Below are positions 1 through 2,441 of a stretch of DNA of 64,000 bases, piece by piece. A program made the position numbers and the translations under genes. The notes beneath the pieces are model-generated. The model worked only from the letters and a program-made list of their open reading frames with translations. It was not told the origin of the DNA and ran no database searches. Position 1 is the first letter of the stretch. Each line of letters starts with the position of its first letter. This DNA comes from Rhodobacter sp. SY28-1 (GTDB lineage Bacteria > Pseudomonadota > Alphaproteobacteria > Rhodobacterales > Rhodobacteraceae): positions 186,001-250,000 of the forward strand of contig NZ_STGH01000002.1 in assembly GCF_005222785.1 (NCBI RefSeq). Reading direction: 5' to 3'.

Positions 1-489
1 GGCGTCCATGTCTTCACCGCCAAGCTGACCGCCGAGGATCTGCAGCGCGACAAGGGCCGCCTTGCGACCGAACTGCTGGGCGACCCCGATCTCGACCCCG
101 CCTTCGTGGAGATATTCGATCTTGCCGACCTCGCCGACGTGGGTCTCTCCGGCTATCTGGTCGAGGGGCTGGGCGTCCCGTCCGCCGCGGTTCAAGACCC
201 TGCCCGGCTTGATGCCCTGCAGGGGCCGGTCCTTATCCTGCTGTCAAAGGCGCTGCACGGTCGCGCGGTCACCCTGACGCCCGATTCCCGGCTGACCCTG
301 GTGGGAACCTATGCCGAGGAACGCCCCCCGGTGCATTTCGAGCCCCTGCCCACCGTTACAGCCCAGGGTCATGTGACGCCTGATCTCCCCCCGGACCGGA
401 CACCGCAACGGCCCGCCTCGGCCTTCATCCTCCTCGGGCTTGCCCTGTTCCTTGTGGCGGGCGTTGCGCTGTGGCTCGCGCTGGGGTGA
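1..489 (+). CDS. C-terminal part of a membrane-anchored protein of unknown function (truncated by window edge)
   Basis: The reading frame is open from the first base, so the gene starts upstream of the window. The visible part is about 162 residues of mixed, mostly soluble sequence. It ends in a proline-rich linker and one hydrophobic segment of about 20 residues just before the stop, so it is probably a tail-anchored or C-terminally anchored inner-membrane protein. I recognise no catalytic motif. It lies 62 bp upstream of the dihydroorotase-like gene on the same strand. In related bacteria a small membrane protein often sits between pyrB and the pyrC-like gene, so membership of a pyrimidine-linked operon is likely but is inference. 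Confidence 0.6.
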   Translation, partial: GVHVFTAKLTAEDLQRDKGRLATELLGDPDLDPAFVEIFDLADLADVGLSGYLVEGLGVPSAAVQDPARLDALQGPVLILLSKALHGRAVTLTPDSRLTLVGTYAEERPPVHFEPLPTVTAQGHVTPDLPPDRTPQRPASAFILLGLALFLVAGVALWLALG

Positions 490-551: not shown

Positions 552-1826
552 ATGACCACGCTGCACTTTTCGAACGCCCGCCTGATCGACCCCGAGGCGG
601 GGACGGATGCCCCGGGCAGTCTGACGGTGAGGGATGGGGTGGTCCTGGCCCGCGACGAGAAGGCCCCGAAAGGTGCCAAGGTGGTGGACTGCGGAGCCAG
701 GTGCCTGGCACCCGGGATCGTCGACCTGGGCGTCAAGATCGGCGAACCGGGTGAGAGGCACCGCGAAAGCTTCGGCTCGGCCGGGGCGGCTGCGGCCGCG
801 GGGGGCGTGACCACGATCATCGCCCGACCCGACACCCACCCCGCCATCGACACGCCGGAGGTGCTGGAGTTCGTGACCCGCCGCGCGTCCGAGGCCCCGG
901 TCCGCATCCGCCACATGGCCGCGCTGACCAAGGGCCGCGACGGGCGCGAGATGACCGAGATCGGCTTCCTGCGCGATGCCGGGGCGATTGCGTTCACCGA
1001 TGTCTTCAAGGTCTCGACCGAGGCGAAGGCTCTTACCCGGGCGATGACCTATGCCCGCTCGCTGGGGGCGCTGGTGGTGGGCCACCCTCAGGATCCAGGG
1101 CTGTCTGCAGGGGCTTCGGCGACCTCGGGCAAGTTCGCCTCGCTGCGCGGCATCCCGGCCGTCTCGCCCATGGCCGAACGGATGGGGCTGGAACGGGACC
1201 TTGCGCTGGTCGAGATGACGGGCGTGCGTTACCACGCCGACCAGATCACCACGGCGAAGTCCCTGCCCGCGCTGGCCCGCGCCAAGGCAGCGGGGCTGGA
1301 CGTGACGGCGGGGACCTCGATCCACCACCTGACGCTGAACGAATTCGACGTGGGCGATTACCGGACCTTCTTCAAGGTCACCCCGCCCTTGCGGTCGGAA
1401 CAGGACCGGCTGGCGATTGTCGCCGCCGTGGCGGACGGGACGATCGACGTGATCTCGTCCTTCCACACCCCGGCGGACGAGGAATCCAAGCGCCTTCCTT
1501 TCGAAGAGGCCGCCGCCGGGGCCGTCGCGCTGCAGACCTTCCTGCCCGCCGCGATGCGGCTGTACCATGCCGGGCACATCGACCTGCCCGCACTTTTCCG
1601 CGCGATGGCGCTGAACCCGGCCAACCGGCTGGGCCTGCCGCAGGGCCGCCTGACCCTTGGCGCGCCCGCCGATCTGATCCTGTTCGATCCCGACGCGCCC
1701 TTCCTGATGGACCGCTTCAAGCTGCTGTCCAAATCCAAGAACACCCCGTTTGACGGCGCGCGGATGGAAGGTAAGGTGCTGGCGACCTGGGTCGGCGGGA
1801 CGCAGGTCTTCGCGGCGGAAGAATGA
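552..1826 (+). CDS. pyrC: Dihydroorotase-like protein, probably non-catalytic (PyrC pseudoenzyme)
   Basis: This 424-residue protein has the amidohydrolase fold sequence of class I dihydroorotase along its full length. Active enzymes carry HxHxREPG near residue 60; here it reads DLGVKIGEPG (58-67), so both metal-binding histidines are replaced by Gly60 and Lys62. The ATDHAPH catalytic loop is ISSFHTPAD (301-309), with Phe304 in place of the catalytic Asp. The usual YHxxHxST is YHADQITT (227-234), losing another ligand. Asp150 and His178 remain at ligand-like positions. Pseudomonas has a comparable inactive PyrC' that supports aspartate carbamoyltransferase assembly, so a structural role with PyrB is the best guess. 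The ATG at 552 is chosen because homology starts there; the frame is open further upstream. plsY follows after 3 bp. Confidence 0.85.
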   Translation: MTTLHFSNARLIDPEAGTDAPGSLTVRDGVVLARDEKAPKGAKVVDCGARCLAPGIVDLGVKIGEPGERHRESFGSAGAAAAAGGVTTIIARPDTHPAIDTPEVLEFVTRRASEAPVRIRHMAALTKGRDGREMTEIGFLRDAGAIAFTDVFKVSTEAKALTRAMTYARSLGALVVGHPQDPGLSAGASATSGKFASLRGIPAVSPMAERMGLERDLALVEMTGVRYHADQITTAKSLPALARAKAAGLDVTAGTSIHHLTLNEFDVGDYRTFFKVTPPLRSEQDRLAIVAAVADGTIDVISSFHTPADEESKRLPFEEAAAGAVALQTFLPAAMRLYHAGHIDLPALFRAMALNPANRLGLPQGRLTLGAPADLILFDPDAPFLMDRFKLLSKSKNTPFDGARMEGKVLATWVGGTQVFAAEE

Positions 1827-1829
1827 GAG

Positions 1830-2441
1830 ATGCCTGAATTCGTGACCTCGCAGGGGATGCTCCTGCTGACCGCCGCCTTGGGCTACCTCTTGGGCTCGAT
1901 CCCGTTCGGGGTGCTGGTCACCCGGGCGATGGGTTTGGGCGACTTGCGGCAGATCGGGTCGGGGAACATCGGGGCGACCAATGTCCTGCGGACCGGGAAC
2001 AAGGGGGCGGCGCTGGCCACCCTCCTGCTCGACGGGGGCAAGGGGGCGGTCGCCGTCCTGCTGGCCCGCTGGCTGGTGGGTGAGGATGCGGCGCAGGTCG
2101 CCGGGCTGGCGGCGTTCCTGGGGCATCTTTTCCCGGTCTGGCTGCGCTTCAAGGGCGGCAAGGGGGTGGCGACCTTCATCGGCGTCCTGCTGGCGCTGAA
2201 CGGGCTGGTGGGGTTGGCGGTCTGCGTGACCTGGCTGTTGGGGGTGGTCGTGACCCGGACTTCATCCATCGCGGCGCTGGTTGCGGCGGCAGCCTCGGGG
2301 CTGTTCGTGCTGGCCCTGACGGACGGGAGCCTCCTCTTGCTGACCCTGATCCTGACCGTGTTGATCTATGTCCGCCACAGTGAGAACCTGAAACGGATCA
2401 AGGCCGGGACCGAGCCGAAGATCGGGGCGAAGAAGGCCTGA
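1830..2441 (+). CDS. plsY: Glycerol-3-phosphate acyltransferase PlsY
   Basis: PlsY transfers the acyl group from acyl-phosphate to glycerol-3-phosphate, the first step of phospholipid synthesis, in the inner membrane. The 203-residue protein is of usual length and strongly hydrophobic, with about five membrane segments. The three family motifs are visible: GSIPFG followed by GSGNIGATNVLR, DGGKGAV, and GHLFPVWLRFKGGKGVAT. The ATG is 3 bp after the upstream stop, so the gene is translationally linked to the dihydroorotase-like gene. This pairing is common in Rhodobacteraceae. Confidence 0.95.
   Translation: MPEFVTSQGMLLLTAALGYLLGSIPFGVLVTRAMGLGDLRQIGSGNIGATNVLRTGNKGAALATLLLDGGKGAVAVLLARWLVGEDAAQVAGLAAFLGHLFPVWLRFKGGKGVATFIGVLLALNGLVGLAVCVTWLLGVVVTRTSSIAALVAAAASGLFVLALTDGSLLLLTLILTVLIYVRHSENLKRIKAGTEPKIGAKKA

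Follow-up and report, generated by a model that had tools for sequence, protein, structure and literature searches.

The locus and its product

The window analysed here is a stretch of 64,000 nucleotides. Near its start it carries an open reading frame for a 424-amino-acid homologue of class I dihydroorotase (DHO), which we call pyrC' (pyrX). The frame is full-length. It runs from an ATG at 552 to a stop codon at 1824-1826, and plsY begins with its own ATG at 1830 (Table 1). The first-pass annotation had given this frame, its coordinates, the DHO fold and the coupling to plsY correctly.

The product matched 39 NCBIfam models at E 0.01. The best of them is PRK09059 (NF006558), a dihydroorotase equivalog, at 504.4 bits, which lies below its curated cut-off of 645 bits. 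On the other hand, the TIGR00857 "dihydroorotase" cut-off of 279.05 is exceeded (294.2 bits). An automatic annotation would therefore mislead, and the earlier expectation that it would name an active PyrC is borne out.

The nearest solved sequence is PyrC of Aquifex (E 1e-70). An AlphaFold2 model, built with 66 aligned sequences, has a mean pLDDT of 96.0. The modelled fold is the same as that of Aquifex aeolicus DHO in the class A1 DHO-ATCase dodecamer (PDB 3d6n, 4bjh), and it superimposes on 3d6n with a Z of 59.5 and an rmsd of 1.5 over 420 residues. The product is a full-length class I DHO homologue with the predicted fold of the family.

Table 1. Features of the pyrC' locus. Positions are those of the window unless locus L003 is named.
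Feature	Position	Strand	Remarks
pyrB	L003 3390-4352, outside window	same as pyrC'	OTCace_N 9.7e-42
Four small ORFs, pyrB-pyrC' interval	L003 4349-6489 (up to window 489)	–	partly membrane-like
Last of the four small ORFs, 3' part	1..489	+	between pyrB and pyrC'
pyrC' (pyrX)	552..1826	+	class I DHO homologue, 424 aa, putatively non-catalytic
Gly60, Val61, Lys62 codons	729..737	+	replace HxH motif (Aquifex H61, H63)
Gly64	741..743	+	replaces Aquifex R65
Asp94	831..833	+	replaces Aquifex N95
Asp150, Val151	999..1004	+	Asp150 = Aquifex D152, non-ligand; Val151 = zinc ligand D153
His178	1083..1085	+	= Aquifex H180; sole survivor of six ligand positions
Gln231	1242..1244	+	replaces Aquifex H232
Phe304	1461..1463	+	replaces Aquifex D305
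Ala308	1473..1475	+	replaces Aquifex H309
Segment ESKRLPF, residues 311-317	1482..1502	+	family majority sequence here; unlike Aquifex
plsY, glycerol-3-phosphate acyltransferase	1830..2441	+	PF02660 3.3e-52; 3 bp past pyrC'

Active-site substitutions

In Aquifex DHO, the alpha-zinc ligands are described as His61, His63 and Asp153, with Asp305 the next closest residue, and His180 and His232 belong to the beta site (PMC3880350). Gly154 comes right after the ligand Asp153 (PMC3880350). Aquifex PyrC has all six of these residues and is active in its complex, whereas the pyrC' product has one of six. The zinc-site residues of an active class I DHO (HxH, Asp153 and Asp305) are absent, with G60, K62, V151 and F304 instead. 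Three more pocket residues are changed: R65 to G64, N95 to D94 and H309 to A308. In E. coli DHO, these are substrate-binding positions.

The alignment confirms what had been reported for Gly60, Lys62, Gln231 and Phe304, and likewise the persistence of His178. Conversely, Asp150 had been taken as a kept ligand, and this was wrong. The ungapped alignment pairs Asp150 with D152 and Val151 with D153, so the site is more degraded than the earlier reading held. The substitutions are not a sequencing slip, because neither HxH nor D153 is kept in any of 80 named relatives (the best 80 of 591) or in any of 71 family rows with data.

Genomic context

The pyrB gene lies upstream on the same strand, with a gap of 2.2 kb to the start of pyrC'. 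The two are encoded together, although four small ORFs separate them. None of the four has a Pfam match above the cut-off. The spacing between pyrB and pyrC' ranges from near 0 to more than 3 kb in Rhodobacterales, whereas it is about 50 bp in the other genomes of the class sample. It follows that an old pair of pyrB and pyrC' was split by inserted genes.

A class II PyrC of 346 residues is encoded separately in the same genome, at 430.4 bits for TIGR00856 (cut-off 292.95). Its motifs DDWHLHLRDG, AVKLYP, CTHGEV, MEHITT and GTDSAPH are legible and correspond to the active-site motifs of this class. Judged by these features, this protein is predicted to be the separate, competent dihydroorotase of the genome. 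The first-pass annotation had held that its reading would fail if the genome had no other pyrC and the strain grew without pyrimidines. A second pyrC with readable motifs is present, so this objection falls away.

We also searched for the regulatory chain PyrI. This genome has no TIGR00240 match at E 0.001, and the same search detects PyrI of E. coli. A class B ATCase (PyrB with PyrI) was not found in this genome.

Conservation and selection in the family

Of 110 family genomes, 108 carry pyrC', and one gene among the matches listed has an internal stop (G241). A class II PyrC match is present in 103 of the same 110 genomes, and both genes occur in 102 (lists compared by eye). The seven genomes without a class II match are G247, G256, G260, G272, G280, G293 and G306. 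With a completeness of at least 97%, G256, G280 and G293 are either exceptions or users of another DHO.

Compared with 11 close relatives, pyrC' has dN of 0.13-0.17 and dS of 0.65-1.02, a dN/dS of about 0.16-0.22. It means that the gene is under purifying selection. In the same comparison, dN is lower for PyrB (0.06-0.09) and higher for PlsY (0.23-0.34).

The active-site substitutions are widely shared. We inspected 71 of the 108 family matches plus G022, 72 rows in all, one of them partial. Gly is found at position 61 (Aquifex numbers) in 67 of the 71 rows with data. The named relatives, being the best 80 of 591, are biased to close kin. In this set Gly61, Asp95, Asp152, His180 and His306 are present in 80 of 80, Lys63 in 72 and Gln232 in 75. 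Position 153 is variable (C, G, V or A). Most former metal and substrate positions of the named set have thus settled on one new residue instead of drifting, with D153 excepted. The neighbours are also kept: of the 80 named loci, 77 have plsY downstream and 75 have a same-strand pyrB upstream, with at least 1.2 kb of upstream sequence contained in 78.

In the segment ESKRLPF, all of 66 sequences have K313, and at least 90% have each of R314, P316 and F317. Because KRLPF was one of the features by which the named set was chosen, the conservation of the segment in that set is circular. The segment could possibly be a contact with PyrB.

Ligand loss across the class

A match at 1e-40 was obtained in 156 of 240 class genomes. 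We inspected 130 of the 156; the other 26 include most of the lowest-scoring ones. HxH is lost in 125 of the 130 genes and the Asp ligand, counted on the Aquifex D153 column, in 124. Intact HxH is seen in five, D153 in six and all six ligands in five. Of the 130, 116 keep His180, 84 keep D305 and 71 keep His232; Arg occupies position 61 in 102. From these counts, ligand loss is general in the class for this gene family. With one of six ligands left, the lineage of the window is further along in this loss than most. We considered a salt bridge between Arg61 and Asp153 and dropped it, D153 being missing in 124 of 130.

The prevailing gene order in the class is pyrB-pyrC'-plsY. Of 100 class loci (L051-L150), 98 have pyrB upstream in the same orientation and 89 have plsY downstream.

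Other dihydroorotases were also counted. Class II DHO matches at 1e-40 are present in 52 of 240 class genomes (47 above the cut-off), and a PRK09060-type DHO above its cut-off in 115 of 240. Counting either of these (class II at E 1e-40, PRK09060-type over the cut-off) as another recognised DHO, the full set of six ligands is present, among the 130 inspected genomes, in 4 of 9 without one versus 1 of 121 with one (Fisher p 5e-5). Two of the nine are incomplete (G011, 77%; G023, 71%) and may merely miss the sequence. This association is not independent evidence, because the intact state needs only two changes on the tree. Nor did the independent-pairs test, which yielded a single pair, give any support.

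Some individual genomes deserve mention. G033 (L147) is the only inspected genome that combines a PRK09060-type DHO with a pyrB-linked gene retaining the six ligands. G131 (L125) and G233 (L130) are 99-100% complete and have a degenerate PyrC', and neither a class II nor a PRK09060-type DHO was found in them; their remaining TIGR00857 matches look hydantoinase-like by eye. G110 (L144) is a 1.9 Mb genome, 100% complete. Its lone TIGR00857 match has Gln at H61, with the five remaining ligands in place, and searches for a class II or PRK09060-type DHO gave none. The G110 gene may encode a functional DHO in which one ligand is atypical.

Outside the alphaproteobacteria, in a 200-genome sample of the phylum, 15 of 15 sequences above the NCBIfam PRK07627 "dihydroorotase" cut-off (L358-L372) are without HxH and Asp153. 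The name therefore looks wrong for them.

Origin of the loss

In an Aquifex-rooted tree of 136 rows (quick search), the 129 rows without D153 (124 from the class and 5 from the family) form one starred clade. Outside it are the five intact genes and that of G110. In a second tree, with 39 alphaproteobacterial and 30 other rows (the best 30 of 163 matches, not a fair sample), the intact alphaproteobacterial genes are nested among degenerate ones. A tree with all degenerate genes together was not rejected (p-AU 0.549), the score being 4.45 log units better. The two trees disagree on the placement of the intact alphaproteobacterial genes, and we claim no number of losses.

Discussion

A probable non-catalytic partner of PyrB

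By analogy with known systems, PyrC' is very probably the non-catalytic subunit (PyrX, pseudo-DHO) of a class A2 aspartate transcarbamoylase. In Pseudomonas aeruginosa, this ATCase is described as a dodecamer in which six catalytic chains are combined with six inactive pDHO chains. The catalytic unit is monomeric and forms the active trimer only with pDHO, and PyrC' is required there for ATCase activity (PMC7053772). Like the putatively inactive product here, the Pseudomonas PyrC'/PyrX is an inactive class I DHO homologue of the 45 kDa class, encoded with pyrB and apart from the active PyrC (PMC7053772). Unlike in Pseudomonas, four ORFs part pyrB from pyrC' in the window's genome, and plsY follows. 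The residues at the six ligand positions also differ: GKVHQF in the window versus SAGTQH, ARARRD and the like in degenerate sequences from outside the alphaproteobacteria.

The second precedent is smc01361 of Sinorhizobium meliloti. Its disruption causes pyrimidine auxotrophy, and it has been proposed as PyrX (PMC5929573). Like pyrC', it is alphaproteobacterial, annotated as dihydroorotase and beside pyrB, with the essential PyrC elsewhere (PMC5929573). The correspondence rests on class and neighbourhood, and the auxotrophy is known for the S. meliloti gene. Finally, fungal Ura2/CAD-like proteins have an inactive pseudo-DHO domain that retains the fold and accompanies ATCase (PMC7053772). It is part of one long polypeptide, whereas pyrC' is a separate gene.

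According to this model, the DHO fold would be retained so that PyrC' dimers join PyrB trimers into a PyrB6-PyrC'6 dodecamer. PyrC' would make PyrB active or stable, and the dihydroorotase step would be carried out by the separate class II PyrC. We infer such a complex, its 6:6 stoichiometry and the need of PyrB for PyrC' from the systems of Pseudomonas, Aquifex and S. meliloti. The first-pass annotation had suggested a pseudoenzyme and structural partner of PyrB. The second PyrC, pyrB upstream, purifying selection and the S. meliloti precedent lend support, by analogy, to that reading. By its anatomy, PyrC' is a Rhodobacterales counterpart of these proteins and adds a member to a kind that is established in Pseudomonas and has been suggested for Sinorhizobium. 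In the open-licence PMC literature we found nothing on pyrC' in Rhodobacterales, and the available text of an essentiality study of R. sphaeroides names no result for it (PMC5513736).

Several observations count against the partner reading. The four small ORFs make pyrB and pyrC' non-adjacent here. G131 and G233 have a degenerate PyrC' but neither of the DHO types searched for. Likewise, G256, G280 and G293 are without a class II match, and G033 has six ligands despite its PRK09060-type DHO. Moreover, the pocket is not freely drifting, which a pure scaffold would not require.

A possibly rebuilt pocket

The conserved pocket might suggest, though only tentatively, that the emptied zinc site was rebuilt and not relaxed. 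A fixed cation would then perhaps replace the metal ligands: Arg61 in most alphaproteobacteria inspected, and Lys63 with Gly61 in Rhodobacterales. The putative pocket would consist of this cation with Asp95, His180 and His306. It could prop the PyrB-binding loops in a metal-free way, or bind an effector.

A related explanation, rather unlikely in our estimation, is that PyrC' is a PyrB partner with a regulatory function like that of PyrI, its remodelled pocket binding a small ligand. This would be a nucleotide, an aspartate-like molecule or a phosphate, held, with similarly modest probability, by Lys62, Asp94, His178 and His305. Such a role refines the partner reading, and the two are compatible. 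The five positions fixed in the named set, with Lys63 and Gln232 nearly so, are in its favor. So are the 108 of the 124 class sequences without D153 that have Arg or Lys at one of the positions 61 and 63, and the lack of a PyrI match in the genome. Nevertheless, the named set is close kin, and many other columns are equally conserved (median column entropy 0.42 bits), and packing could suffice. Positions 153, 65 and 309 are variable. Arg or Lys makes up about 10% per column, which gives about 20% expected at either of two, and the sequences are related. In addition, nucleotide allostery is doubted for P. aeruginosa (PMC7053772).

Unlikely alternatives: residual catalysis or decay

That PyrC' has remained a dihydroorotase, or acts as some other hydrolase that dispenses with the usual metal site, is highly improbable. 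The TIGR00857 score and the intact fold agree with such an activity, and His180 and His232 are described as individually dispensable in Aquifex DHO (PMC3880350). However, the residues that serve the zinc site, on which the Aquifex enzyme depends, have all changed (HxH, D153 and D305). The substrate residues are replaced as well, and the genome has its second PyrC.

Most catalytic residues are gone, but a decaying pseudogene retained through its position before plsY is hardly credible, being already contradicted by the low dN/dS, the full-length frame, the presence in nearly all family genomes with a single internal stop among the matches listed, and the nearly invariant segments.

Implications

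For a non-catalytic PyrB partner, a dihydroorotase label on pyrC' would lead metabolic models and essentiality calls astray. Since 125 of 130 inspected class genes are without HxH, this mislabelling is likely widespread. The genes range from those with six ligand positions kept to those with none, a natural series in which to ask how an enzyme turns into a scaffold. If the rebuilt site is real, it would make PyrC' a PyrI-like regulatory subunit that evolved from an enzyme.
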